Positions 6,595-51,529 of a stretch of DNA of 54,905 bases are shown piece by piece. The translations under genes and the position numbers were made by a program. The notes beneath the pieces are model-generated. The model searched no databases. It saw only the letters and a program-made list of their open reading frames with translations, and was not told the origin of the DNA. The DNA is taken from the NCBI GenBank assembly GCA_019117605.1, contig DWZK01000090.1, positions 1 through 54,905 on the forward strand. Direction: 5' to 3'. Numbering within the stretch: the stretch's first letter is position 1; each line of letters starts with the position of its first letter. This DNA comes from Candidatus Intestinimonas stercoravium (GTDB lineage Bacteria; Bacillota; Clostridia; Oscillospirales; Oscillospiraceae).

Positions 6595-9500
6595 TCAGCC
6601 TTCCAGAGCCAGATAGCGGCTCAGGATGGTGGCCAGCTCCGCACGGCTGCTCTGGCCGGCGGGGGCCAGCAGGCCGCCGTCCCGGCCCTGGATCAGGCCG
6701 GCTCCCACGGCCCAGGACATGGCATCCCGGGCATAGGCGCTCACCTGGCCCTCGTCAGGATAGGCATCCAGTGCGCTGCCGCCGGCGGTGCTGCCGCCCA
6801 TATGGGACTGGTAGCGGTAGAGCATGGCCGCCAGCTGCTCCCGGGTCACGGGGTCATTGGGGGCGAAGATGCCGGTGTCATAGCCGGTGACCACGCCCGC
6901 CTGGCTGGCCCAGCCCACCGCCTGGGCGTACCAGCTGCCGCTCTCCACGTCGGGGAAGGCGGAGCCGCCGGTATAAGTCTCGCCGGACATGCGGTAGAGC
7001 ACCGTGGCCACCATGGCCCGGCTCACCGTCATATCGGGGGCGAAGAGCCCGCCGGACACGCCCTGCATCAGGCCGTTGGCGACGACATTCTGGACTGCGC
7101 CGGCGTACCATGCGCCCGCGGGCACATCTGTGAACACGGTGGGAGCCAGAGGCGTCTCACCCTCGCCGATCTCAGTGCCGCCGCCCTGGCCGGAAGAGCC
7201 GCTCTGCCCCGGCGCGGTCACCACGGTGGAGCTGTTCTCCGGGTCGTGGTCCTCATCGGTCTCCGGGGGCTCGGGCGTGGGCTCGTCGGGCTCCTCAGGC
7301 GCTTCGGTGCATACGATGTCCGCCCGGTCCCGGATGCGGATGCGGGGCGCAGGGCCGTCGAAGGTATCGTCATAGGAGGCCAGACCGGTGGCGGTGATGG
7401 CGCAGCCTACCTCCAGCCCCTCCACGTCCTGATCGGTGGTGATGTAGCCGTCGATGAACACCCGGCCCACATCGCCGTTCTCGTCCCTGACCATGATGGT
7501 CTGGACCAGGCCGTTCTCCTCCTGGAAGGAGGTCACGGTGCCCTCCAGCGTTACCAGACTGCCCAGGACAGAGCCGTCGTTGAGCTGGGCCGCAGTGATG
7601 GCCTTGGGGGCGGGAGCGGCGCCCTCGCCGACCTTCTCGATGCTGTCCACGGCGATCTGCCGCTCGCCCTGGTAGGAGGAGGTGGTGCCGGTGATCCGAA
7701 CGATGTCGCCGATCTTGAAGTCTCCCGCCACAGGGAAGGCGTTGACGCCGGCGGTGTCGTCCTGGACGTAGATGCAGTCGAAGAAGGCGGTGTCTCTGTC
7801 ATAGCCGGAGGCGTTGGAGGTGACCACGCCCTCGATGGTGTAGCGGACGCCCTCTTCCGGCTCCGCCTGCACGTCGGCGATGTGGCTGACGGTGACAGGA
7901 TTGAGGTATTCCACCAGGTTCTCGCAGATATCATAGTTGGAGTAGTTCTTTTCCGCTCCGGAGTCCTCTACCGTGGCCTGGACCTCGAAGTTGGACATGA
8001 AGGCAGCGCCGGCGACGATGATGAGGCCCTGATCCTCCACCTGCTCGGTGGCCAGGACCATCAGGCGGTCGTCCCCTTCGGACACGGGATATTCAGGGAT
8101 ATCTCCGCCCAGGCCGTCGTGGTCGTTGTCGCTGGAGTAGGTGGAGTCGTGGCCGTAGACCACCGGCGTGACTGTCGCGGGCAAGACGCTGGTGGGCGTA
8201 CCGCTCTCATCCACCGCATAGACGGTAGAACCGCCGTAGTTGCTGTAGAGCTGGGAGTACATGTTGTTGTCGGGGTTCTCAGGGTCGAACTCCACGCCGT
8301 CCATCAAGAAGCTGTCGAAGTTATAGGTGGACAGGTAGAGCCTGCGGTTGGAGTCCCCGCCGTTGCGCTCGTCATCAGAAGCCGTGTCATCGCCCAGGCG
8401 CAGCGAGGAGCCCAGCGCCTCCAGGAGCTGGTTCTGGGTGGCGGCCATGTGCAGGATGGTGGGGTCATCCTGGATGACGCTGTAGTTCTCATAGACGTCG
8501 CCCCAGCCGGACACCACGACCGTGCCGCCGGCAGCGTTGAAGGCCGCCAGGGCGTCCAGCTCCTCCTGGGAGTAGGTCCGCGGGTCGCTCTGGGCCTCCG
8601 CCAGCCGCCGGGAGGGAGCGGTGAGGATGATGGCCTTATACTTCCCGTCCGCATTCTCGCAGGCGGCGATCAGATCGCCGCTGGTCTCCAGCTCCACGGT
8701 GCGCACCAGATGACCGGCCGCCAGGTTGCCGAAGTTGCCCATGGAGTCCTTATAGTTGCCGTTGACATACTCGTTATAGTGGGAGGCGTCGATGCCGATA
8801 TACACCAGCTTCTCCGCGTCCAGCACGTCCAGGGTCACGTCCATGCTGTAGGTGTACTGGGTCCCGCCCTGGGTCATCGCCACTGTGACGGTGATGGTGG
8901 TGAGCCGGGCCTGGGTCGGGGTGTAAGTCCACTCCACTGCCAGCGTGCCGCCGGAGGCGTCCACGGTGTAGCCGGTGGTGTCGGTATACAGGGTCTCGCC
9001 TCCGCTGGTGTAGGTGATGGAGTCCACCGCGGCCGCTTCCGTCTCGCTGTTGAAGAGGTTGGTGGTGATGGTCACCGGCTCATCCGTGACGGGATTCTCG
9101 GTGCCGCACTCCACGGAGGAGATGCCCAGCTTCAGGGTCTCGCCCACCCAGACGGGAGCGGTGACGGCCAGGTCGCCGTCGCCCTGGGTGACCCGGATGA
9201 AGTAGTAGCTGTAGTCGGCGGGGATGGTGCAGGTGAGCTCGCCGGAGGCCAGCTCCTCCGGGTCGTCCCAGGTGTGGGCCACCGCGCCGGAGTTCACCAC
9301 CACCTCCACGCGGGTGATGGAGTCGGCGGCGTCGGGGTCGTAGACCGAGACGGCGATCTCCGCGGCCTCTACGCTGTCGTCATCAATGATGGAACCCAGC
9401 ATCTGACCGTTGAGGCTGTACTGGATCTCCAGGTTCTTGTCCTCGGTGGCGTAGATGCGGCGGTCCCGGATGGCCTGATAGATGCCCTCCTCGGAGAAAT

Positions 9501-12500
9501 CGTCGGTAAGGATGACGTCACGGGCGTCGTTGGCGTTGCCCCACTTGCCCTTGTGGTTGTCCTGGTTGTTGGTGGGGCCCACATGCCAGCCCTTGTCCAG
9601 AGCCATGATGTACTGCTCATAGCTGGGATAGTAGCCGCCCGCGCCGATGGCGCCCTCGCCGTTGCCCACTTCCACCAGCTGGATGCGGGTGTCGATGACG
9701 GGGTCCCAGTAGGCGAAGTCGACGAAGTTGCCGAAGGTGGTGCCGGGGTGGTTGAACTGGTTGATGGAGTTCACGCCCTCGGCCTGGCTGAGCAGGGAGT
9801 AATAGGCCTTCAGCCCGGCGTCCGACGTCTTGCTGTTGAGGGTGTCGTTGTTGCGGGAGACCAGGCCCTCGGTGTTGAAGGTGTTGATGTGGCCGGGGCC
9901 GCCGGACCAGGTCATCTCGAAGCCGGCCAGGGCCACCAGTTCCCCGGCGTGCTCGTCGTTGAAGCCGGCCACCGCGCCCTTGTACTCCTCCCAGGTGGCC
10001 AGGCTCTCCCCGGTCATCTGGCTCTTGTCATAGAGGGCCTGCTCCGGGTTGGAGGAGCTGGTGCTGTCAAAGTAGTTGGAGTGGTCGGTGAAGGCCACGA
10101 AGTCCACGTTTGCGCTCTCGGGCAGTCCGGCCACATAGTCCAGGGCGGACTCCAGGGAGCCGGAGCCGTCAGAGTAGGTGGTGTGAGAGTGGAGCTGCCC
10201 GAAGTAGAGCTGATAGGCCGCCTCGCCCACAGTGAAGCTCCAGGTGCGGGAGGCGCTCTTGCCGCCCGTCCGGGTGACGGTGACGGCGGCGGTATAGCGG
10301 CCGTCTGCCAGATCGGCGGCGGGGGTATAGGAGGCGGTGTTCCCCTCGATGGTCATATCCGCCCCGTCCGCCACCGTCACGCCGCTGCCGGTCAGGGTCA
10401 GCTTGGCTGCGGGGGACTCTCCCGCGTTGGCAAAGGTGACCGAGATCACGGGCCGCTTATCCTCGCCGGTCTCTGCCCCGGCGTCGGGGGACACGGCGGT
10501 GATCACAGGCTCGTCCTTCACGGTGAGGATGGCCGTGCCGAGGAAGGCCGCTCCCTTGCTGTCCGTGCCGGAGACCGCCAACTCCAGGGTCCCCTCCGTC
10601 AGGGCGGAGCCGGGGATGGTAAAGGACCAGACCCCGTTCTCCAGCACAGGCTGGACCGTGGTCCCGCCGTACTGGGCGGAGACGGTCTGGACGCCGAACA
10701 CCGCGTCCACGGTAAAGGTGACGGTGTAGTCGGTCCCCACGAAGGCGTCGGTGAGGACGCCGAAGGTCACGGTGGGCACGTTGACCACACCCTCGGTGAC
10801 GTTCACGCCCTCCGCCAGGGGGCAGAACAGGAAGGTGTAGATATCATAGTCGGTGACATTGTACATGCTGTAGGTCTTGAAAGACCCGCCGTAGTACTCC
10901 AGGTACTGGGAATAGCGGCCGTTGAACTTTGCGGTGCGGCTCTCCAGGCTGTAGCCGGAGCCCAGCACGGCCAGGGTCCAGTCGGCGTCCTCGGAGGCCT
11001 CCTGGCTGTAGAAGGCGTTGTTGCCGGTGCCGTTGGAGCACAGGTATCCGTAGCTCTCGTTATGGAAGCGGTAGTACTCCCCATTGTGCTCCACGGTGAA
11101 CACCGCCGCGCCGTTGCCGGGGACAGCCGCGCCGTCTGCAAGCTCGGTGGGAGCGTTCTCAATGGAGGGGCTCTCCGCATTGTCGTCCTGGCCCGCCAGC
11201 ACGCCCTGGGCGGACAGGTTGTAGAGCACGACCTGGTCCCCCTCCTCGGGGAGGTCCCCGCCGGGCTCCGGGATGTCGCCGGTGACCTTGTAGAAGGCCA
11301 GGGCGAACATGTCCTCGCTGCCTGCGCTGATATTATAGTACGCGCTCCAGTTGTCTTTGGAGTCATACCACTCCATGTAGGCATCCCGGACGGTATTGCG
11401 GACGTACCACAGGCCGTCCTCCGCCTCTACCAGCTCCCACTTGTCGTTCTTCTCGTCAAGCGGCATACTGGTGAATTCGTCCCCCATGCTGATCTTCTGC
11501 CCGTCATAGGAGAACGACCAGGTCCCGTCACCGTTGTCGGTGACCGTCCACACATCGGAGGCGCTGTACCCGCTCAGGGTGCCGTCGCTGCCTACGGTCA
11601 CGTCGGTGCCGTTGTTGTAGTGGCCGGTATAGGTGGCCGACAGGGCCTTCCCGTAGGCCGGGTTATAGATGACCACTTCCTCCCCGTCCGCGATGGGGGC
11701 GTCCGGGTCGGAGGGGCCGGGGTCCTCTCCCTCTGCCTTGTAGAAAGCCAGGGCGAACATGTCCTCGCTGCCCGCGCTGATATTATAGTACGCGCTCCAG
11801 TTGTCTTTGGAGTCATACCACTCCATGTAGGCATCCCGGACGGTATTGCGGACATACCACAGGCCGTCCTCCGCCTCCACCAGCTCCCACTTGTCGTTTT
11901 TCCCGTCAAGCGGCATACTGGTGTGGCTGTCCCCCATGCCGATCTTCTGCCCATCATAGGAGAACGACCAGGTCCCGTCACCGTTGTCGATGACCGTCCA
12001 CACGTCAGAGGCGCTGTACCCGGTCAGGGTGCCGTCGCTGCCTACGGTCACATCGGTGCCGTTGTTGTAGTAGCCGTTATAGGTGGCCGACAGGGCCTTC
12101 CCGTAGGCGGGGTTATAGATGACCACTTCCTCCCCGTCTGCGATGGGGGCGTCCGGGTCGGAGGGGCCGGGCTCTTCCGTGCCGCCGCCCTCTAGCTTGT
12201 AGAGGGTGAAGTCGCAGGGGTAGCCGCCAGGCTGGCCGGCGATCGTACTGTCTTTATACGCACGGAATTTGTTCTCGGAGCTCTTATTGCTGGCCAGGGT
12301 CACCGTGTCCTCTCCCACGCCGTGGAACTGGAACGTCCCGTCGGCGAAGGTCACGTCCCAGACGTAGTCCCCCTTCGAAATGCCGTTCGCATTGCCGCCC
12401 TTGGGGGCCACCGTGACGCCGTTGGCGTCGGTGAGCACGGCGGTCTCGCCGTCCACCGTGATATCCCACACGATGCCGGAGGCGGGATCGGTGAGGGTAT

Positions 12501-12732
12501 CCGCGCTGGTATCCACCTCCGCGGCGGGGAGCCAGGTGCCGCTCAGCGCCTCCACCGCATAGTCGTCCACCGTCATCACATACTTGCCAGTGGTGAATTC
12601 CGCCTGTTCTGTGATCTTCTCAAAAGTTCCCGTGCCCTCCGCGGCAAAAGCCCCGGCAGGCAGGGCGCTGAAAGCCATGGAAATGGACATCAGCGCCGCC
12701 AGCGCTTTTCGTTGCCATCGTGTTTTCGTCAT
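6595..12732 (-). CDS. secreted multidomain S-layer homology protein with CehA/McbA-like PHP metallohydrolase domain
   Basis: 2045 aa: signal peptide (RKALAALMSISMAFSALPAGAFAAE); duplicated ~145-aa module; PHP motifs (GQLHSHTTYSDGSGS, FVAFTDHSNY, INQFNHPG, NNQDNHKGKWG); OB-fold-like region (VRYTIEGVVTSNASGY...FFDCIYVQDDTAGVNAF); three C-terminal SLH repeats. Confidence 0.85.
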   Translation of the reverse strand: MTKTRWQRKALAALMSISMAFSALPAGAFAAEGTGTFEKITEQAEFTTGKYVMTVDDYAVEALSGTWLPAAEVDTSADTLTDPASGIVWDITVDGETAVLTDANGVTVAPKGGNANGISKGDYVWDVTFADGTFQFHGVGEDTVTLASNKSSENKFRAYKDSTIAGQPGGYPCDFTLYKLEGGGTEEPGPSDPDAPIADGEEVVIYNPAYGKALSATYNGYYNNGTDVTVGSDGTLTGYSASDVWTVIDNGDGTWSFSYDGQKIGMGDSHTSMPLDGKNDKWELVEAEDGLWYVRNTVRDAYMEWYDSKDNWSAYYNISAGSEDMFALAFYKAEGEDPGPSDPDAPIADGEEVVIYNPAYGKALSATYTGHYNNGTDVTVGSDGTLSGYSASDVWTVTDNGDGTWSFSYDGQKISMGDEFTSMPLDEKNDKWELVEAEDGLWYVRNTVRDAYMEWYDSKDNWSAYYNISAGSEDMFALAFYKVTGDIPEPGGDLPEEGDQVVLYNLSAQGVLAGQDDNAESPSIENAPTELADGAAVPGNGAAVFTVEHNGEYYRFHNESYGYLCSNGTGNNAFYSQEASEDADWTLAVLGSGYSLESRTAKFNGRYSQYLEYYGGSFKTYSMYNVTDYDIYTFLFCPLAEGVNVTEGVVNVPTVTFGVLTDAFVGTDYTVTFTVDAVFGVQTVSAQYGGTTVQPVLENGVWSFTIPGSALTEGTLELAVSGTDSKGAAFLGTAILTVKDEPVITAVSPDAGAETGEDKRPVISVTFANAGESPAAKLTLTGSGVTVADGADMTIEGNTASYTPAADLADGRYTAAVTVTRTGGKSASRTWSFTVGEAAYQLYFGQLHSHTTYSDGSGSLESALDYVAGLPESANVDFVAFTDHSNYFDSTSSSNPEQALYDKSQMTGESLATWEEYKGAVAGFNDEHAGELVALAGFEMTWSGGPGHINTFNTEGLVSRNNDTLNSKTSDAGLKAYYSLLSQAEGVNSINQFNHPGTTFGNFVDFAYWDPVIDTRIQLVEVGNGEGAIGAGGYYPSYEQYIMALDKGWHVGPTNNQDNHKGKWGNANDARDVILTDDFSEEGIYQAIRDRRIYATEDKNLEIQYSLNGQMLGSIIDDDSVEAAEIAVSVYDPDAADSITRVEVVVNSGAVAHTWDDPEELASGELTCTIPADYSYYFIRVTQGDGDLAVTAPVWVGETLKLGISSVECGTENPVTDEPVTITTNLFNSETEAAAVDSITYTSGGETLYTDTTGYTVDASGGTLAVEWTYTPTQARLTTITVTVAMTQGGTQYTYSMDVTLDVLDAEKLVYIGIDASHYNEYVNGNYKDSMGNFGNLAAGHLVRTVELETSGDLIAACENADGKYKAIILTAPSRRLAEAQSDPRTYSQEELDALAAFNAAGGTVVVSGWGDVYENYSVIQDDPTILHMAATQNQLLEALGSSLRLGDDTASDDERNGGDSNRRLYLSTYNFDSFLMDGVEFDPENPDNNMYSQLYSNYGGSTVYAVDESGTPTSVLPATVTPVVYGHDSTYSSDNDHDGLGGDIPEYPVSEGDDRLMVLATEQVEDQGLIIVAGAAFMSNFEVQATVEDSGAEKNYSNYDICENLVEYLNPVTVSHIADVQAEPEEGVRYTIEGVVTSNASGYDRDTAFFDCIYVQDDTAGVNAFPVAGDFKIGDIVRITGTTSSYQGERQIAVDSIEKVGEGAAPAPKAITAAQLNDGSVLGSLVTLEGTVTSFQEENGLVQTIMVRDENGDVGRVFIDGYITTDQDVEGLEVGCAITATGLASYDDTFDGPAPRIRIRDRADIVCTEAPEEPDEPTPEPPETDEDHDPENSSTVVTAPGQSGSSGQGGGTEIGEGETPLAPTVFTDVPAGAWYAGAVQNVVANGLMQGVSGGLFAPDMTVSRAMVATVLYRMSGETYTGGSAFPDVESGSWYAQAVGWASQAGVVTGYDTGIFAPNDPVTREQLAAMLYRYQSHMGGSTAGGSALDAYPDEGQVSAYARDAMSWAVGAGLIQGRDGGLLAPAGQSSRAELATILSRYLALEG
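11288..12176. repeat. tandem duplication of ~440 bp inside the SLH/PHP gene
   Basis: Units start at ~11288 and ~11738 (offset 450 bp). Both encode DAPIADGEEVVIYNPAYGKALSATY...YNISAGSEDMFALAFYK, nearly identical at DNA and protein level. Confidence 0.9.
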
Positions 12733-40219: not shown

Positions 40220-41440
40220 TCAGATGGCCTTCTTCTCCTTCAGCTCCGCCAGTTCCTCAGCGGAGAGGCCCAGCAGGCCGCCGTAGATCTCCTCATTGCT
40301 GCCACCCAGCTCGGGGCTGCACTCATACTCCACATGGTTGGCGCTGAGCTTGGGGGCGAAGCCGGGGACCTTCACCTTGCCCCGCTGGGGGTGCTCGATC
40401 TCCGCGATCATGCCGCGCTCCAGGTACTGGGGGTCGTTGGTGATGTCGGCGCAGTCCAGCAGAGCGCCGGCGGGGATGTCCGCCTTGCAGAGGATATCCA
40501 TGGCGGTGAACTTGTCGTAGTTCTTCAGCCATTCCTTGATAGCGCCGTCGCAGATGTCCCGGTGTTCATAGCGGGAGTGGGGCGTGGCCATCTCGGGACA
40601 CACGTCCTGCTTCAGGTCGGGACGGCCGATCACGTCGCACAGGTTGTCCCACTGCTTGCTGCCGGGATGGCGGGAGCAGTAGATGTGCACATAGTCGTTG
40701 GGCCCGAAGGGCTTGCAGGGGTAGGTGTCGGAGGGCGCCACATCCTCCAGGGGCATGCCGTTGGCCACGCGGCGGTTGGGCTTGCCGTTGTTCAGATAGG
40801 GCTCCCACTGAGAGCGGCTCAGGCCGATCATGAAGTCCTGCATGGCCACGTCGATGCGCTGGCCGATGCCCTCCCGTTCCCGCTGGAGCAGGGCGGCGAT
40901 GATGCTCAGGGCCATCATGATGCCGGTGCCGGAATCGGCCACGGAGATGCCGCATTTGATGGGCTGGTCGGGCAGGCCGGTGGCGGAGACCATGACACCG
41001 GTGTGGGTGGCGATGGGGTCGAAGGCGGGATAGTTGGCGTAGGGACCGTCCTTGGCAAAGCCCTTCAGGCTGGCATAGACGATCTTGGGGTTGATCTCCT
41101 TGCAGTGCTCATAGGTGAGGCCCAGGTGGTCCATGGAGCCGGGGCCCATGTTCTCCACGATGACGTCGCACTTGGTGAGCAGCTTCTCCAGCAGGGCCAG
41201 GCCCTCGGGGGACTTGGCGTTGCAGGTGATGGACTTCTTGTTCATGTTCATGACCAGGAAGCCGTAGCTGTCCACGCCGGGGTTCGCCTGGGAGTAGCGG
41301 CCCAGCTCGCCCTTCACGGGGCGCTCCACCTTGAGGACCTCGGCGCCCAGCCAGGCGAGGGTCTCGGTGCAGACGGTGCCGGCCTCGAACTGAGTCATGT
41401 CCAGGATACGGTAACCGGAGAGGGGTCCTTTGCAAGCCAT
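40220..41440 (-). CDS. CaiB/BaiF-type (family III) CoA-transferase
   Basis: GPLSGYRILDMTQFEAGTVCTETLAWLGAEVLKVERPVKGELGR...VENMGPGSMDHLGLTYEHCKEINPKIVYASLKGF. Confidence 0.94.
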   Translation of the reverse strand: MACKGPLSGYRILDMTQFEAGTVCTETLAWLGAEVLKVERPVKGELGRYSQANPGVDSYGFLVMNMNKKSITCNAKSPEGLALLEKLLTKCDVIVENMGPGSMDHLGLTYEHCKEINPKIVYASLKGFAKDGPYANYPAFDPIATHTGVMVSATGLPDQPIKCGISVADSGTGIMMALSIIAALLQREREGIGQRIDVAMQDFMIGLSRSQWEPYLNNGKPNRRVANGMPLEDVAPSDTYPCKPFGPNDYVHIYCSRHPGSKQWDNLCDVIGRPDLKQDVCPEMATPHSRYEHRDICDGAIKEWLKNYDKFTAMDILCKADIPAGALLDCADITNDPQYLERGMIAEIEHPQRGKVKVPGFAPKLSANHVEYECSPELGGSNEEIYGGLLGLSAEELAELKEKKAI

Positions 41441-41479: not shown

Positions 41480-42829
41480 CTATTTGTTGTCCTTCTTCTC
41501 CTTGTTGGGGATCACACGGGTCTCGATGAACTCGTCCACCAGTCCGGTCATGGTCTCGGCGTTCCACTTTTTGGGGTTGACAGGATCGGCGTTGAAGGTG
41601 AGCACCGGGTAGCCGGCGTCTTCCATGACCTTCTTGATGAAGTAGCTGCCCTCCACGGCCTGGATATCGTTGTCGGGGATCATATAGACCACGCCGTCGA
41701 TATCGTTCTGCTTGGCCTGCTGCAGGAACCAGCTGCTGTTCCAGGGCGGCATGTGGAGGAAGTCCTCCATGCCGATGTACCGTGCGGCCAGGGCCCGCAG
41801 GGGGTCCTCCTCCACATGGTTGCGGATATAGGCGTCGGCGCCCATGGCCAGATACATGGACCACATGAACACGGCGCCGTACTTCTGCTCGAAGCGCTGA
41901 TAGAAGGCGAAGTCCTGCCACATGCCGCGGCCCAGCCACATCATGCGCAGCTTCTCATCGGGCACGGCGGCCTCGCCCTTGTCGGCCAGGGCCTTGACCT
42001 CCTCGTAGAGGCTCTTGGCGTGGTCGGCGGCCCACCGGGTGCCCCGCTGCCACTGGGCCTGCATCACGGCGTTGATGGTGTCCACCACGGTGACGGGCAC
42101 GGGATGGCACTGGGCGATCAGGTCCCGGGTCTTTTTATACCAGCCCTCCTGCTCGTTGATGAGGTCCATGACCTCCTGGAGCTTGTTGATGTCGAAGAGC
42201 TTGCCGGTCTTCATCTCCAGCCAGCGGATGAGCTCCTTCATCTCCTCCACGGCCAGGTCGATGCGGTCGGTATCGTACATCTCTTCCCAGCGGTCAGCGG
42301 CCAGCTCATACCAGTTCAAGGGGGTCTTGCGGGCCTGGGTGTTCTCGATCACATACAGGTCGGCGTCATAGTTCTCCGCCAGCAGGCCGAAGATCTTGTT
42401 CTGCGCGTCGCCGGTCAGGCGGGTGATGCAGATCGTGGGCTTGGGCAGTCCGCCCCAGGGGCCCATGGGGTTGCCGTCGGCATCCACCTTGTGGTCGTCG
42501 GGGTCGAAGCTCTCGGCCAGGGCCTGGGCGTCGTAGCTGTTCAGGTCGGGGCGGTAGCCGTTCTCCTGCATCAGGCCGAAGTACTTGCGGGTCATCCGCT
42601 TGGCGCCGCAGATGGCGGCCCACCACTGGTTGACCACGAAGGGGATGTCCATGGCCCGGAAGATCTCCATGGGCACGTCGGCGTTCAGGATGGCGAAGTC
42701 GCACTTCTCCTTCTCCACCCGGTCCTTCATGGAGAAGAACCACTCCTTCTGGTACACGCTGACCGTCTTGGTGGCCTTCAGCTTCTTCACGACGGTGGAG
42801 CGGGAACCGGCTTTTTTCTCCTCAGGCAT
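41480..42829 (-). CDS. 2-hydroxyacyl-CoA dehydratase family protein, subunit 1 (449 aa), atypical cysteine content
   Basis: HgdA/B-BcrB/C-like layout (DVPMEIFRAMDIPFVVNQWWAAICGAKR; DADLYVIENTQARKTPLNWYEL; IDGVVYMIPDNDIQAVEGSYFIKKVMEDAGYPVLTFNADP). Confidence 0.8.
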   Translation of the reverse strand: MPEEKKAGSRSTVVKKLKATKTVSVYQKEWFFSMKDRVEKEKCDFAILNADVPMEIFRAMDIPFVVNQWWAAICGAKRMTRKYFGLMQENGYRPDLNSYDAQALAESFDPDDHKVDADGNPMGPWGGLPKPTICITRLTGDAQNKIFGLLAENYDADLYVIENTQARKTPLNWYELAADRWEEMYDTDRIDLAVEEMKELIRWLEMKTGKLFDINKLQEVMDLINEQEGWYKKTRDLIAQCHPVPVTVVDTINAVMQAQWQRGTRWAADHAKSLYEEVKALADKGEAAVPDEKLRMMWLGRGMWQDFAFYQRFEQKYGAVFMWSMYLAMGADAYIRNHVEEDPLRALAARYIGMEDFLHMPPWNSSWFLQQAKQNDIDGVVYMIPDNDIQAVEGSYFIKKVMEDAGYPVLTFNADPVNPKKWNAETMTGLVDEFIETRVIPNKEKKDNK

Positions 42830-43998
42830 TACTGGACACCTTCTTTCATCTCGGCCGCGAACGCGGCCAGTTTCTCATCCAGGCCCTCGTTCTTGGACAC
42901 GGGCCACAGCATCCGCCCGAAGGTGACATGCTTGATGCCCCGGGCCTCCAGGCTCTTGCGCTGCTTGGGCATGTCCCAGGTGGCCACCTCATCATACTGA
43001 TTGGTGTAGAAGATCACGCCCTGGGCACCGGCGGCGTCCACCTCCCTGTCGAGGGCGCCCACCCGCTGGGCGGGGGTGGCCTTCCGGGCGGAGAACTCCC
43101 GCAGATAGTAGCGGTCCACGATGCCCCGGATCACGGGGTAGTCGGGGTCATAGTCCCGGTCGTAGTGGCGGTCGCCCCAGTCGGTGTCCTCGCCCACCAC
43201 CACCATGCCGGCAGCCTCGATCTTGTCGTAGAGGGCGGTGTCCTCCTGGTTGGCGCCGGTGTAATACACCCGGGGCCCGGTGAGGACGGGCCAGCTCTTG
43301 GCGTCCTCGGTGACCTGGCGGACCAGCCTGGCGTGCTCGGCCCGGTCCATGAAGAGGCCGGAGCCGATGATCACAAGGGCCTCGGAGCCGTTGATGCGGA
43401 CCTCCTCGCCGTGGCGGAGGGCGGCCATCTCCCGGAGGGCCTGGCGGTCCTCGTTGCAGATCTTGCCGGCGGCCCGGATCTCGTCGTCGCCGATCTCCCG
43501 GCCGGCCCACTCCTCCACCTGCTTCTTGAAGAGCTCGATGATGAACTCGTCCCGCACCTGATGCATGCGGTGGCGGGTGAAGAGCCAGTCGATGAAGGCC
43601 ACCGGCGGCACCGCCTTCTCCGGCTCCACCCGGTGGATCTCCCGCAGATAGAGGAAGACGCGGATGATGACATCGGTGCTGTTGGAGATGGCCAGAGCGT
43701 CGATCTGGTCGTGGTAAGTCCCATCCACGATCTTCTCGAACTGGGCCCGGACCACGGGATCGAAGGCGTACTCCAGATATTTGTCGGTCTCCACCAGGGG
43801 CCGTTCCGGGTCCGCATAGACCCGTACGGGGAGCATCCCGGCGGCGATGATGAGCTCGGCGGGCACGTCGCAGCCCAGCTCTCCGACTACCTTCTTCCCT
43901 TCCGCGCGCCACTTGGCGGCGGGAGCGTCCCGGTGGTCATAGACTTCTTTCAGCGCGCGGAACGCCTCGCTCTCCAGCGCTTCTTTCCGTATTGACAC
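42829..43998 (-). CDS. 2-hydroxyacyl-CoA dehydratase family protein, subunit 2 (389 aa), only two cysteines
   Basis: VGELGCDVPAELIIAAGMLPVRVYADPERPLVETDKYLEYAFDPVVRAQFEKI...; AAGAQGVIFYTNQYDEVATWDMPKQRKSLEARGIKHVTF. Overlaps the next gene at 42829. Confidence 0.82.
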   Translation of the reverse strand: MSIRKEALESEAFRALKEVYDHRDAPAAKWRAEGKKVVGELGCDVPAELIIAAGMLPVRVYADPERPLVETDKYLEYAFDPVVRAQFEKIVDGTYHDQIDALAISNSTDVIIRVFLYLREIHRVEPEKAVPPVAFIDWLFTRHRMHQVRDEFIIELFKKQVEEWAGREIGDDEIRAAGKICNEDRQALREMAALRHGEEVRINGSEALVIIGSGLFMDRAEHARLVRQVTEDAKSWPVLTGPRVYYTGANQEDTALYDKIEAAGMVVVGEDTDWGDRHYDRDYDPDYPVIRGIVDRYYLREFSARKATPAQRVGALDREVDAAGAQGVIFYTNQYDEVATWDMPKQRKSLEARGIKHVTFGRMLWPVSKNEGLDEKLAAFAAEMKEGVQ

Positions 43999-44026: not shown

Positions 44027-45820
44027 TCAGCCGCGCAGCGCCTCATATTCGCCGAACAGGGGCATCAGCGTCTCGATGTCCTCTACGCGCTGCCCGGCCT
44101 CTGTGTGCAGGTCTGTGTCGAACACCATGGTACACTTGCCCTCTGCGTCATAGGGCGCCCACTCCACGCCGGCATCTTCGAAATACGCATTGCCCGCGTT
44201 GGGATCCCCGGTGAGGGCGAAGCAGGACCAGGCTCTCCGCATGGCCTTCTGCAGCTCCTCGGGGGCGTTCTCGTCCGTGCCGAAGAGCGCGTTCCGGTCC
44301 GAGCCATGGACCGCCCGGAGGCCGTCCGCGTTCTCCGCATACCACTCGTAGGAGAAGAGGTAGGCGTTGCCGCCGCGGCTGAAGAGCTCCGCGATCATCA
44401 CCGCGCTGACCTTCTGGTTGATGTCGTTCTTCAGGTCCTTGTAGGCGGTGATGGTATCCCGGCCGTACTGCTCGTTCCGCTCCACATAGGAGCCGATGAT
44501 CTCGTCCGCGTCCTCCGCGCCTCCCCGCGCCGGGTCCAGCTTGCCCCAGTTGGCGGAGATGATGGCCTCCAGGGCCTCCTCCTCGCTCAGGCCGGCCAGA
44601 TCCCGGTCATACTCGCCGTTGGTGGAGCCCACCAGGATCTCCACGTCGTTGGAGGCGGCCACTTCCTCCAGCTGCTCCCAATAGTCATCGAACACCACAA
44701 CATTGTCGATCACGGTGGTGAACATCTTGCTCTGGGAATCGGGGAGGTAGGCGCCGATCGCGCCGGAGGACAGGTATGCCTGGGCGTCCAGCAGCTCCTG
44801 GGGCTCCAGCTCCAGAGCCTCCGCGATGGTGGTCACCCCGGTGTGCTCCCGGAATTTCTCCGCGGCCTCCAGGCTCTCCTCCCAGGTGGCCAGGGAGATG
44901 CGGTCGATGGCCACGCCGCTCTCCATGATCACCTTGTCGAAGTATTCGGTGGCTCCGGGGATCAGCAGCATGGAGGAGGCGGTGACCGCGCCCGCGGACT
45001 GGCCGCCGATGGTCACGTTCTCCGGGTCGCCGCCGAAGGCGGCCACGTTCTCGCCGATCCATTGCAGCGCCAGGAGGAAGTCCGTGCGGATGAGGTTGTT
45101 GCTGTAGCGGTACTCGTCCTCATATTCCGCATAGTCGTCGAACTCGGTGAGGTTGATGCAGCCGAAGTAGCTCACCCGGGAGTTGGGCACCGCCACGATC
45201 ACATCGGGCTCCTCCGCCACGATCTTGGAGGGGTCGGTGCTGCCGCCGCGGCTGGCAGTGCCGCCGCCCACAGGGCACCAGACGATGACCGCCTTCTTGT
45301 CCGAGGTGCCGGCGGGGTTGACGTAGATGTCCATCTGGAGGACGTCCTCGCTCTGGGTCTCCGGGTCATAGGTCCCCTGGACGGGGAGCACGCTCTCGGC
45401 GGGATAGTGGACCTCGTCGCTCTCGGCGGGCAGTTCCGCCCGCTTCCAGCGCTCTGCCGTGCCGAAGGTCACGCCCTTGTAGGCCACCACCCCGGTCTCG
45501 GGGTCCAGCCGGCCCACATAGGTGCCCGTCTTGGTCTTTACCGTCCTGCCGGGGATGGTGCCCACATAGACCGCCCCGGTCTCCGGGTCCCACTCGATGG
45601 GGATCCCCAGGTATCCGGCGATCGCCCGCAGGGGCAGATAGGTGGTGCCGTCCCGGGCGAATACCTCCACGGGCTCTCCGTTGACATCGGTGGGCGCGGC
45701 CAGCTCGCCGTCAAAATAGACTCTGACGGACACCTCCGCCGCAGCTGCGCCCGCTCCCGCGCCCAGCAGGCCGGCGGCCAGCACCGCGGCGGCGGCCCGT
45801 CTTCCCAAGTGCTTCCTCAC
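44027..45820 (-). CDS. secreted carboxylesterase type B with N-terminal copper amine oxidase N-like stalk domain
   Basis: Signal peptide; VRVYFDGELAAPTDVNGEPVEVFARDGTTYLPLRAIAGYLGIPIEWDPETGAVYVG; esterase elbow VTIGGQSAGAV and VHGSDRN His region. Confidence 0.9.
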   Translation of the reverse strand: MRKHLGRRAAAAVLAAGLLGAGAGAAAAEVSVRVYFDGELAAPTDVNGEPVEVFARDGTTYLPLRAIAGYLGIPIEWDPETGAVYVGTIPGRTVKTKTGTYVGRLDPETGVVAYKGVTFGTAERWKRAELPAESDEVHYPAESVLPVQGTYDPETQSEDVLQMDIYVNPAGTSDKKAVIVWCPVGGGTASRGGSTDPSKIVAEEPDVIVAVPNSRVSYFGCINLTEFDDYAEYEDEYRYSNNLIRTDFLLALQWIGENVAAFGGDPENVTIGGQSAGAVTASSMLLIPGATEYFDKVIMESGVAIDRISLATWEESLEAAEKFREHTGVTTIAEALELEPQELLDAQAYLSSGAIGAYLPDSQSKMFTTVIDNVVVFDDYWEQLEEVAASNDVEILVGSTNGEYDRDLAGLSEEEALEAIISANWGKLDPARGGAEDADEIIGSYVERNEQYGRDTITAYKDLKNDINQKVSAVMIAELFSRGGNAYLFSYEWYAENADGLRAVHGSDRNALFGTDENAPEELQKAMRRAWSCFALTGDPNAGNAYFEDAGVEWAPYDAEGKCTMVFDTDLHTEAGQRVEDIETLMPLFGEYEALRG

Positions 45821-45923: not shown

Positions 45924-47264
45924 TCAGAACGGGAACACGCCGACGATGGCGCCCACGATGGCCAGGACGATGCCCAGGATCCAGGTGGGGATAAAGAGGT
46001 ACTTCAGGTTGTCCTTCATCTCCACTTCGGCCAGGCCCAGGGCCAGATAGGGAGTGGGGGCCACCAGACACAGGTTGGCGGCGATGCAGGCGCCGATGAC
46101 GCAGGCGCCGGCGGCGTGCATGGTGGTGCCGCCGAAGGCGACCGCCATGTTGCCGAAGATGGGGGCCATGATCATGTACAGGGAGTCAGAGCCCACCGCC
46201 ATGGACAGGGGCACGCTCAGCAGGGCGATGATGAAGGTCAGGTGGCTGCCCATAGCCTCGGGCACGAAGCTGATCAGGGTCTCGGTCATGGCGTTCATCA
46301 TGCCGGTATCCTTCATAACGCCCACCAGCATACCGATGGAGAAGAGGATCATGACCATGTTCAGGGCGGTAGCGCCGTGCTTCTTGATCTGGGCGGTCAT
46401 CTCCTTGGAGCCGTGGCAGTTGAGCAGCAGGGCGAAGGACAGGAAGATCATGAAGGCCACGTTGGTGTTCAGCCAGCCCAGCAGCATAGCCACGACCATC
46501 ACGACGGTCATGATCATATCGATGTACAGGACAGTGTTGCTGACCTTCAGCACGGGGTCGTCTTTCTTGCCCATGCCGGACTTGATGGCGTTGAACTCGT
46601 CGTCAGGCATACCGCAGCCGCGGGCCTTCAGGATCTTGCCCAGTACGAAGCAGGAGGCGATCAGGATGATGAAGCCCACGATCTGCACGGGCAGCAGCGC
46701 GTTCCACAGTTCGTAGGGATCCACACCGGTGGAGGCGGAGACACGGGCCAGGGCGGAGGTCCAGGGCAGCATGTTCTCCACGCCGGACCACAGGCCCACA
46801 TAGCCCAGAAGGATGACGTTGCTCACCCGCATCTTTTTGTACAGGGGGAGCATGGTGGGGATGGTGATCAGCATCGTGGTGGCGCCGGAGCCGTCCAGGT
46901 GGGAGATGAACGCCAGGAAGCAGGTCATGAGCAGGATAGCGCTGACGCTGTTGCCCATGCGCTTCATGACGGCGCCCACGATCACGTCGAACATACCGGC
47001 GTCGCTCAGGATGTTGAAATAGACGATGGCGAAGGTGAACAGCACCACCGTATTCAGGACGCTGTTGGCGCCGGTGCCGATGTAGCCCTTCAGGGCATCC
47101 AGGATGCCCAGAGGGCCCACCACATCGGGCAGAGCGCCGGTCACGCTCAGCACGATGACAGCGGCGGTGGACAGGAGGATCAGGATGGGGGGCAGCGCGA
47201 CCCTGCCCCAGATGATCAGAGCGACCATCGCGATGACCAAGATGAATCCTACAGCAGCTAGCAT
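45924..47264 (-). CDS. CitMHS-family (citrate/carboxylate) transporter
   Basis: 446 aa, ~12 TM; FISHLDGSGATTMLITIPTMLPLYKKM and VGSDSLYMIMAPIFGNMAVAFGG. Confidence 0.85.
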   Translation of the reverse strand: MLAAVGFILVIAMVALIIWGRVALPPILILLSTAAVIVLSVTGALPDVVGPLGILDALKGYIGTGANSVLNTVVLFTFAIVYFNILSDAGMFDVIVGAVMKRMGNSVSAILLMTCFLAFISHLDGSGATTMLITIPTMLPLYKKMRVSNVILLGYVGLWSGVENMLPWTSALARVSASTGVDPYELWNALLPVQIVGFIILIASCFVLGKILKARGCGMPDDEFNAIKSGMGKKDDPVLKVSNTVLYIDMIMTVVMVVAMLLGWLNTNVAFMIFLSFALLLNCHGSKEMTAQIKKHGATALNMVMILFSIGMLVGVMKDTGMMNAMTETLISFVPEAMGSHLTFIIALLSVPLSMAVGSDSLYMIMAPIFGNMAVAFGGTTMHAAGACVIGACIAANLCLVAPTPYLALGLAEVEMKDNLKYLFIPTWILGIVLAIVGAIVGVFPF

Positions 47265-47468: not shown

Positions 47469-48773
47469 TCAGAAGGGGAATACGCCGAAGAGGACGGCAA
47501 TGACCGCCATAACGATGCCGAAGATCCAGGTGGGGAGGAAATTGGCCTTCAGATGGTCGCCCATCTCCACGCCCGCCAGGCCCAGTGCCAGATAGGGGGT
47601 GGGGCCGATGAGGGCCAGGTTGGCGGACAGGCAGGAGCCGATCATCAGCGCCGCACCGGCCTGGAGCATGCTGCCGCCGAAGGCGATGGTCATCTCGCCC
47701 AGGATGGGGGCGATGACCATGTAGACGGTATCGGAACCGACGCACATGGACAGGGGCACTGAGATCAGGCAGAGGATGAAGGGCAGGTGGCTGCCCATGG
47801 ACTCGGGCATGATGCCGATCAGGGTATTGGTCATGGCCTCCATGATGCCGGTGCCGTTCATGATGCCCACCAGGATACCGATGGAGAAGATGATCATGAC
47901 CATGTACAGCGCGTTGGAGCCGTGCTTCTTGATCTGGGCCACCTGGTCTTTGGGGTTGGGGAAATTCACGATCGCGCCGATGGCCAGAGCGATCATGAAG
48001 CTGAGGTTGGCGTTGAGGATGCCTACGAGCATCAGGACGATCAGCGCCACGGTGAAGATCATGTCAAAGATGAGCACGCCCTTCTTCACCTGGACCACTG
48101 GCTCCTTCAGCGCGCCGCTTTTGAGCACCTGGAACTCCTCGTCGGTCATGCCGTATCCCCGCTTGGCCAGCCACATGCCCATGGGGAAACAAGAGAGATA
48201 GACCAGGATGAGGGCCACGATCTGTACCGGCATCACGGCGCTGTACGTCTCATAGACGTCCAGGCCGGTGGCGGAGCACAAGCGCATGACGGCGGAGGCC
48301 CAGGGGAGCATATTGACTACGCCGGAGGTGAGCCCCACATACAGGAGCAGCAGAGTGGGCTTCAGGTTCATCTTCTTGAAGAGGGGGAGCATGGTGGGGA
48401 TGGTGATCAGCATGGTGGTGGCGCCGGAGCCGTCCAGGTGGGAGATCGTAGCCACCAGGCAGGTCATGAGGAGGATCAGGTATACATGGTTCCCCATCAC
48501 CTTCAGGATCTTGGAGACGATCAGGTCGAACATCCCCACGTCGCCCAGCATATTGAAGAAGATGACGGAGAAGGTGAACAGCGCCGCTGTGTTCAGCACC
48601 GAGCTCAGACCGTTGGAGAGGAACCCGGTGATGTCGCTGATACTGAAGCCGGTGACAAGGGCGGCCAGGATCGGCAGGATGATCAGGATCGGGGGAAGGG
48701 AGATCTTTCCAGACAGCATCAGGGCTACCATCACGATGATGGTGATGAAACCAACGGCGGATAACATCGTCAT
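47469..48773 (-). CDS. CitMHS-family transporter, paralogue
   Basis: TISHLDGSGATTMLITIPTMLPLFKKM and VGSDTVYMVIAPILGEMTIAFGG, parallel to the neighbouring ORF. Start moved to MTMLSAVGF. Confidence 0.85.
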   Translation of the reverse strand: MTMLSAVGFITIIVMVALMLSGKISLPPILIILPILAALVTGFSISDITGFLSNGLSSVLNTAALFTFSVIFFNMLGDVGMFDLIVSKILKVMGNHVYLILLMTCLVATISHLDGSGATTMLITIPTMLPLFKKMNLKPTLLLLYVGLTSGVVNMLPWASAVMRLCSATGLDVYETYSAVMPVQIVALILVYLSCFPMGMWLAKRGYGMTDEEFQVLKSGALKEPVVQVKKGVLIFDMIFTVALIVLMLVGILNANLSFMIALAIGAIVNFPNPKDQVAQIKKHGSNALYMVMIIFSIGILVGIMNGTGIMEAMTNTLIGIMPESMGSHLPFILCLISVPLSMCVGSDTVYMVIAPILGEMTIAFGGSMLQAGAALMIGSCLSANLALIGPTPYLALGLAGVEMGDHLKANFLPTWIFGIVMAVIAVLFGVFPF

Positions 48774-49242
48774 AAATATGTACACTCCTTCTGTAAGATC
48801 CATACGGTCCGTCAGGACCCATATCATCATTTCTCTTTCTCGAGATCGGGAGCCTGCATTACCTCTACGCCTCTCATCTCCTAACCAGTTTTACTAAAAT
48901 ATCCCCTAAAAACCGCTTTGGTAATATACAGTCTACACAAGAACATGTTCATTGACTACGTTCACTTTTGAGATGTTTTCGCCAGCGAGATGTGCACAGT
49001 GACCACATTCTTCTCTCACCCGGCGTTTTGGCATGCCAGTTGAGCGCTCTTCCCATCCCCGGCGGCCCCTCTGTGTGCATCTCACCCACTTTGTAGATCC
49101 ACACTTGTGCGGTCCGCACATTTTTTATGCAATAGTAGCAATTTCGTCTGTGCTTATGCTAAAATATTTGTATTCGATCCCCATAAGATCGACCGCTTTG
49201 GACCGTTCCCTACATTATTATGATCATAAGGAGGACGTCCTC

Positions 49243-50392: not shown

Positions 50393-51529
50393 ATGACCGA
50401 TGCGCTGGAGCTCTTGGCTGTGGGCGACCTGATCCTGGACGAGCCCGCGCCTATAGAGCCCTATTTCGCCGATACTCTCTCCGTGCTCCAGAATGCGGAC
50501 GTCCTGGCGGGCCATGTGGAGACCCCCCACACCGACCGGAGCCTTCCCTCCTGCGTGGACATCCAGGCCCCGCCCTCCAAGCCGGAGCACCTGCGGGCCC
50601 TTCTCGGCCCGGGCTTCGACGTGTGCAGCGTGGCCGGCAACCATCTCTACGACTGCGGCCCCTACGGGGTCATCGACACCGTGAACGGGCTCAAGGCCCT
50701 GGGGATCGAGTGCGCCGGCGGAGGCGCCGATATCGACGAGGCGAAGGCCCCCGCCGTCTTCGAGCGCGGAGGCGTGAAGATCGGCTTCCTGTCTTACAAC
50801 GCCACCGGCCCCAAGCTGGGTTGGGCCACCAGCCAGAAGCCCGGCTGCAACTATGTGGATGTGGCCACCTATTATCATCAGAAAATGGACATGCCCGGCT
50901 CTCCGCCCCGGATCCACACCTTCGTCTGGGAAGACAGCCTGGAGCAGATGCAGCAGGAGGTGGAGGCCCTCTCCCGGCAGGTGGATCTGACCGTGGTGGC
51001 CTTCCACAAGGGCAACGGCGGGATCACCGCCGCCCTGGACACCTACGAGCGGCCTCTCTGCTTCGCCGCGATCGACGCGGGCGCCGATGTCATCCTGGGG
51101 CACCACCACCACCTGCTCAAAGGCATCGAAGTCTATCACGGCAAGCCCATCTTCCACGGCCTGGGCAACTTCGTGACCGTGACCTATGCCATGACCGCAG
51201 GCTATAACGACACTCCCGAGATGATCCGCTATCTCAAGCAGCGGGCCGCCGAGGGGCGGGGGGACGGGCACTATCCCACTCCTTATTATCCCTGGGCGCC
51301 GGTATCCCGCAATACAGTGATCGCAAAGGTCCTCTTCCGGAAGGACGGCCTGGTGGACTACGGCTTCATCCCCTGCCTGATCGACGAGACAGGGGTCCCC
51401 CGCCTGAAGGACAGGGAGAACGGCGGACAAGAGGTCCTGGACTTCGTCGTAAAGCAAACAGAGGGGGCCCGGCTGAACACCCGCTTCTCCTGGTCGGAGG
51501 ACGGTTCCTGGGTCCGCTTCCAAGGATAG
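50393..51529 (+). CDS. CapA-family (metallophosphoesterase-like) protein 2
   Basis: LLAVGDLILDEPAPIEPYF, SVAGNHLYDCGPYG, VILGHHHHLLKGIEVYHGKPIFHGLGNFV; starts 1 nt after the previous stop. Confidence 0.88.
   Translation: MTDALELLAVGDLILDEPAPIEPYFADTLSVLQNADVLAGHVETPHTDRSLPSCVDIQAPPSKPEHLRALLGPGFDVCSVAGNHLYDCGPYGVIDTVNGLKALGIECAGGGADIDEAKAPAVFERGGVKIGFLSYNATGPKLGWATSQKPGCNYVDVATYYHQKMDMPGSPPRIHTFVWEDSLEQMQQEVEALSRQVDLTVVAFHKGNGGITAALDTYERPLCFAAIDAGADVILGHHHHLLKGIEVYHGKPIFHGLGNFVTVTYAMTAGYNDTPEMIRYLKQRAAEGRGDGHYPTPYYPWAPVSRNTVIAKVLFRKDGLVDYGFIPCLIDETGVPRLKDRENGGQEVLDFVVKQTEGARLNTRFSWSEDGSWVRFQG

Follow-up and report, generated by a model that had tools for sequence, protein, structure and literature searches.

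A 2-hydroxyacyl-CoA dehydratase-like gene pair of gut Clostridia without the cysteine ligands of the family's iron-sulfur clusters

Introduction

What defines the family of the 2-hydroxyacyl-CoA dehydratases and their relatives is an iron-sulfur chemistry that ranks among the most demanding known. In the published mechanism, an activase delivers an electron to the cluster of the beta subunit, from which it reaches the cluster of the alpha subunit, and the beta cluster stores the electron between turnovers; both clusters and the activator are required (PMC11574389; PMC8473912). In the class I benzoyl-CoA reductase core BzdNO, the active-site cluster is held by Cys95, Cys128 and Cys380 of BzdO, the cluster ligands of BzdN are Cys36/73/100/263/293/327, and BzdO Tyr97 and Tyr298 bind the thioester oxygen (PMC11971306).

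We analysed a gene pair of this family in a stretch of 54,905 nucleotides from Candidatus Intestinimonas stercoravium (Oscillospiraceae), contig DWZK01000090.1, termed the window hereafter. The (R)-2-hydroxyisocaproyl-CoA dehydratase HadBC (PDB 3O3M; activator HadI, CoA-transferase HadA) is like this pair in its fold, its subunit pairing, its nearby family III CoA-transferase and its thioester tyrosines, whereas the window pair lacks both cluster sites, its locus is without an activator, and the overall identity is about 20%. With regard to the class I benzoyl-CoA reductase cores BzdNO (8S02) and MbdON (9G87), the window alpha subunit is nearest MbdO by profile and the beta model is nearest BzdN, but the pair is without either [4Fe-4S] or double-cubane ligands, and the Pro-Glu of the BzdO Glu65 region is Asn-Gln in the window's subfamily. 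The double-cubane cluster protein DCCP (6ENO) belongs to the same superfamily and has the same fold, but all of its cluster cysteines are missing from the window pair. Finally, a one-cluster sister group has the operon and the cysteine-less beta subunit of the window, together with an alpha subunit that is 66-79% identical but keeps C97, C140 and C388. Neither cysteine-less nor one-cluster HGD-D pairs are described in the literature searched, whose coverage most subscription papers lay outside.

The gene pair and its fold

The two subunits are encoded as follows.

41480..42829, minus strand: alpha-like HGD-D subunit (HadB/BzdO/MbdO type), 449 aa, no cluster-ligand cysteine; PF06050, 150.9 bits
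42829..43998, minus strand: beta-like HGD-D subunit (HadC/BzdN type), 389 aa, no cluster-ligand cysteine; PF06050, 151.1 bits

Both scores are far above the gathering cut-off of the Pfam HGD-D profile (PF06050, 28.4 bits). The beta frame begins with GTG, preceded by a Shine-Dalgarno-like GAAAGAAGG, and its stop overlaps the alpha start as TAATG. The reading frames and cysteine counts first given by a sequence-only reading of this DNA were reproduced, with four cysteines in the 449-residue subunit (C43, C74, C134, C241) and two in the 389-residue one (C43, C181).

By phmmer, the nearest solved relatives of alpha are MbdO, HadB and BzdO, and beta matches BzdN (3e-23) and HadC (3e-22); profiles built from relatives find MbdO at 3.7e-116 for alpha and HadC at 2e-88 for beta. 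The AlphaFold2 model of alpha (pLDDT 83.8, with low confidence at 326-330, Tyr326 included) has a Foldseek TM-score to HadB of 0.76-0.79 over the query length and 0.88 over the target length, and that of beta (pLDDT 92.5) scores 0.87-0.88 / 0.91 to BzdN/HadC. As predicted by these models, the three-domain HadBC/BzdNO fold is kept intact in both subunits. The more specific profiles were missed by the pair, whether those of the Bzd-type class I benzoyl-CoA reductase equivalogs (TIGR03190/TIGR03191, 101 vs 453.8 and 48 vs 448.6 bits) or that of the double-cubane reductase equivalog (NF040772, 77 and 46 vs 350 bits), whose cluster cysteines are absent as well. The subfamily is HGD-D by profile and fold, yet it lies outside the 2-hydroxyacyl-CoA dehydratases, the benzoyl-CoA reductases and the double-cubane proteins as these are delimited by their cofactors.

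One scan of a genome collection and several whole-genome searches yielded about 40 loci with relatives. The subfamily occurs in 32 of the 401 genomes of the window's family, the Oscillospiraceae, in a few Lachnospiraceae and in one genome of another family of the class. Two groups matter for what follows. Clade I, in which alpha has lost its ligand cysteines, has five members, namely the window, L017 and L018 (Intestinimonas), L020 (Oribacterium sp. C9) and L023 (an uncultured Oscillospiraceae). Clade II is the one-cluster sister group and comprises L012, L019, L021, L022, L032-L052 and L058.

The cluster-ligand positions

Ligand positions were mapped through phmmer and profile alignments to HadB, BzdO, MbdO, HadC and BzdN, which point to the following codons.

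42539..42541, minus strand: alpha codon N97, first ligand position (BzdO Cys95), by alignment to MbdO/HadB/BzdO; Cys in 26/26 clade II rows
42410..42412, minus strand: alpha codon G140, second ligand position (BzdO Cys128), by alignment to MbdO/HadB/BzdO
41666..41668, minus strand: alpha codon D388, third ligand position (BzdO Cys380); Asp in 5/5 clade I rows, Cys in 25/25 clade II rows
43759..43761, minus strand: beta codon D80, at BzdN Cys73, by alignment; all covered members of the subfamily lack Cys here
43675..43677, minus strand: beta codon T108, at BzdN Cys100, by alignment; all covered members of the subfamily lack Cys here
42991..42993, minus strand: beta codon D336, aligned with the KFCDP-motif Cys; all covered members of the subfamily lack Cys here

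As aligned, all three alpha cysteines that would hold the catalytic cluster of component D are replaced (N97, G140, D388), and the same is true in beta of the three that would hold its relay cluster (D80, T108, D336). The non-cysteine residues that had previously been assigned to these positions are correct with one exception: the residue at the second alpha position is G140 of TRLTGDAQ, and not one of ENTQARK. Tyr99 and Tyr326 of alpha are invariant from the canonical enzymes through to the window, and are the apparent counterparts, on the alignment, of BzdO Tyr97 and Tyr298.

Could a cluster be bound in another way? By alignment to the solved relatives, none of the leftover cysteines (alpha 43, 74, 134 and 241; beta 43 and 181) falls at a ligand position. 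Ligation by residual cysteines was rejected because alpha C74 is the only one common to all five clade I members and lies off the ligand positions; no beta cysteine common to the five was found. Selenocysteine at a ligand position, considered after in-frame TGA flags in three relatives, was also rejected: L047 and L048 carry the TGA close to the natural C-terminus, at residue 430 of the match, and the protein extracted from L042 has no internal stop. The same distribution of cysteines makes it very improbable that the pair is still a radical enzyme whose cluster sits on unusual ligands or is borrowed from an activase or a partner, even though activase genes for other systems are present in the window's genome and Asp can be the fourth ligand in some [4Fe-4S] proteins, NsrR being an example (PMC5411485).

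A loss in two steps

The two subunits have different histories. In beta, every ligand cysteine covered is absent in all members examined, paralogs near 50% identity included, which argues that the electron-relay cluster was lost early. In alpha, the sister group keeps C97, C140 and C388, as well as C100 and C142, in 26/26 rows (25/25 at position 388, where partial rows were left out), while L023 retains C100 alone of the lost set. In a tree of concatenated alpha and beta from which the ligand columns had been removed, the five cysteine-less members group together (100/100) and are nested inside the cysteine-bearing rows, so that one change accounts for them. As read from this tree and the alignments, the whole surrounding subfamily shares the absence of the beta ligands, and the alpha ligands disappeared later, once, from within a set of relatives that keep all three alpha cysteines. 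The cluster-free branch proposed by the sequence-only reading therefore stands, by sequence, for the pair and its four nearest relatives; it is narrower and more structured than had been supposed.

This change is concentrated on cysteines, beyond what chance would account for. Among the 188 alpha positions that are invariant in the sister group, 11 are changed in all four of the window, L017, L018 and L020, and these include 5 of the 6 invariant cysteines (hypergeometric P about 1.5e-6, in a test that treats sites as independent, takes the clade as given, and speaks to the concentration on cysteines and not to its cause). Beyond the three ligands, C74, C100 and C142 are invariant in the one-cluster relatives, C74 being found in the window too. 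A His305 > Gln change goes together with the alpha cysteine losses.

The source assembly is 82% complete and in 139 contigs, and one could suspect an artefact or a decaying gene pair. We find this hardly credible: the same residues are found in independent genomes of three lineages, the frames are full length and dN/dS is well below 1. A sequencing error does not explain the loss, because it recurs in four further records, which come from genomes of Intestinimonas, of Oribacterium and of another Oscillospiraceae, and a pseudogene was rejected on the conserved frames together with dN/dS. Between the window and L017, dN/dS is 0.13 for alpha, 0.25 for beta and 0.06 for the adjacent CaiB-type gene; the three genes are therefore maintained, and the beta-alpha-CaiB operon is under purifying selection.

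The activator genes

The absence of an activator gene, noted initially for the window, holds for its contig, on which no PF01869 match is found. The window's genome has five PF01869 domain matches, on three other contigs. One of these domains forms a single protein with a dehydratase-type subunit, next to which lies another HGD-D gene; both have cysteines at the usual motifs, and the canonical HGD-D pair of this genome has its own fused activase. Another protein, of 980 aa, on contig C139 of the same genome (G000; L008 442-3384) has two activase domains and a DUF2229, a domain layout that is also found in many relatives.

In the one-cluster group, no PF01869 match was found in the draft genomes G425 (94% complete) and G522 (90%), and in G173 (99% complete, also a draft) PF01869 occurs only as the tandem-domain type plus one weak fragment. 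This leans against an activator requirement in the one-cluster group, and strict dependence is unsupported, PF01869 being missing from the drafts G425 and G522.

The operon and its neighbours

The pair belongs to a larger gene neighbourhood, of which the following members lie in the window.

40220..41440, minus strand: CaiB-type family III CoA-transferase, 39 nt downstream of alpha; PF02515, 315.7 bits
44027..45820, minus strand: carboxylesterase with a signal-peptide-like N-terminus, 28 nt upstream of beta; PF00135, 171 bits
36324..40184, minus strand: SLH + carboxylesterase + CocE/PepX protein, 1286 aa, 35 nt downstream of CaiB; by domain profiles
45924..47264, minus strand: CitMHS-type organic-acid transporter, recurrent upstream of the pair; PF03600, 8/27 loci
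47469..48830, minus strand: second CitMHS-type transporter; PF03600
49033..50391, plus strand: PGA_cap (CapA-like) protein, recurrent neighbour; PF09587, 7 loci
50393..51529, plus strand: second PGA_cap protein; PF09587
51572..53251, plus strand: PucR-type regulator, recurrent neighbour; PF13556 and PF17853, 14/27 loci

The link to CaiB, which the sequence-only reading had listed for checking, is conserved, the CoA-transferase accompanying the pair at 22 of 27 loci. Its nearest solved relatives are YfdW and the formyl-CoA:oxalate CoA-transferases, and it misses the equivalog profile of the latter (TIGR03253, 324.8 vs 504.2 bits). Recurrent neighbours of the pair are PGA_cap proteins, the PucR-type regulator and a transporter, either of CitMHS type or an ABC importer of Opp/Dpp type; beta-alpha-CaiB is constant across lineages and the type of transporter differs. 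The link to esterases turned out to be specific to the window. Both window esterases have signal-peptide-like N-termini and flank the pair on the same strand, the one at 44027-45820 carrying a copper-amine-oxidase-N domain, but L017 and L018 are without esterases and an esterase ORF lies near the pair in L021 only; being absent from the nearest relatives, the linkage was rejected as a clue to the general function.

Several other genes near these loci deserve mention. PGA_cap proteins are also found beside the operon in L017, L018, L022, L067, L070 and L071, and the two that were scanned resemble the lasso-peptide Trp epimerase MslH, but score only about 100 bits against a cut-off of 700. A glycyl radical enzyme directly follows the CaiB gene in L066 (12137-14629), and in L074 (5970-9429) another accompanies an activase-like radical SAM protein close to a paralogous pair; both enzymes are of unassigned type, below every equivalog cut-off shown. 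Flavoprotein reductases (vinyl-phenol-reductase-like and BaiCD/bilirubin-reductase-like) are present near the pair in L061 (3147-5662) and L060 (4190-7809), from genomes G522 and G463, a hint of reductive metabolism of plant or host compounds. Elsewhere in the window (6595-12732) lies a 2045-aa surface-layer-type protein, in which SLH repeats and a marginal OB-fold match are the only recognised Pfam domains.

A proposed mechanism

The published mechanism depends on the two clusters and on the activator; the substitutions therefore lead us to infer strongly that the pair is mechanistically distinct from the family, as had been suggested at the outset. The lack of a beta cluster would remove the electron relay in the whole subfamily, and the lack of an alpha cluster would leave the substrate, in the window's clade, with neither an electron donor nor an iron Lewis acid. 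With relay and Lewis acid gone and the thioester tyrosines kept, non-reductive acyl-CoA chemistry is what we infer. We give even chances to the proposal that the pair is an intact HGD-D heterodimer that has lost both [4Fe-4S] sites and has left the ATP- and activator-dependent ketyl-radical mechanism for such chemistry.

In this proposal, the adjacent CoA-transferase would convert an imported carboxylic acid to the CoA thioester, on which the heterodimer would then act by addition or elimination of water, by isomerisation, or by epimerisation at the acidified carbon. Tyr99 and Tyr326 would bind the substrate carbonyl, and new polar residues at the former cluster site, such as D388, N97 and D100, could provide acid/base catalysis or oxygen ligands for an ordinary metal ion. 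In the window's organism, it is plausible that the esterases free an organic acid from an ester outside the cell, that CitMHS imports it, and that its CoA thioester is made for the pair.

A rival, and unlikely, reading is that the alpha site now binds a mononuclear metal (Mg, Mn, Zn or Fe) through D388, N97/D97, D100 and possibly D/E386, the pair being a Lewis-acid hydro-lyase. Oxygen donors would here have taken the place of the cluster ligands in a single step, and this reading agrees with an Asp at 388 and an Asn or Asp at 97 in all five clade I members, but G140 supplies no ligand. These candidate residues were chosen from the sequence alone, and L023 differs at several of the new polar positions (Asn and Ala in beta; D97, C100 and S140 in alpha), so strict conservation of a replacement metal site is limited to D388; the Cys at its position 100 counts against D100 as a ligand.

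That the pair is no longer an enzyme, and serves in a pseudoenzyme-like manner as an acyl-CoA-binding sensor, a chaperone or a partner of the CoA-transferase, seems doubtful to us. Every known catalytic cofactor ligand is gone and the operon with CaiB is tight, as one would expect of such a role; however, the pathway-like operon and its transporter are the same in the one-cluster and no-cluster versions, the substitutions are limited to a few sites, and a purely structural role leaves the retention of both thioester tyrosines unexplained.

For the non-reductive heterodimer, the history would be that the beta relay cluster was lost first, leaving an alpha-only site as a possible Lewis acid, and that the window's clade later lost the alpha site in one event. 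In aconitase, an iron-sulfur cluster serves as a Lewis acid, and by analogy the alpha-only cluster of the one-cluster group could act in this way. We find it nearly, though not quite, an even proposition that the subfamily left reductive radical chemistry in two steps, through a one-cluster enzyme (possibly aconitase-like, needing neither ATP nor activator) to a cluster-free acyl-CoA enzyme, both of which would be extant in gut Clostridia.

Implications

Annotation based on profiles would label these genes as oxygen-sensitive radical dehydratases or reductases; predictions made from gut metagenomes on family profiles only would therefore be wrong for this subfamily. A cluster-free branch in which the fold, the acyl-CoA contacts and the operon are kept would separate the role of the scaffold from that of the clusters, and a natural pair with one cluster or none would allow one to test this separation. 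In these gut Clostridia, the scaffold of a family of oxygen-sensitive iron-sulfur radical enzymes may be working by a different chemistry.
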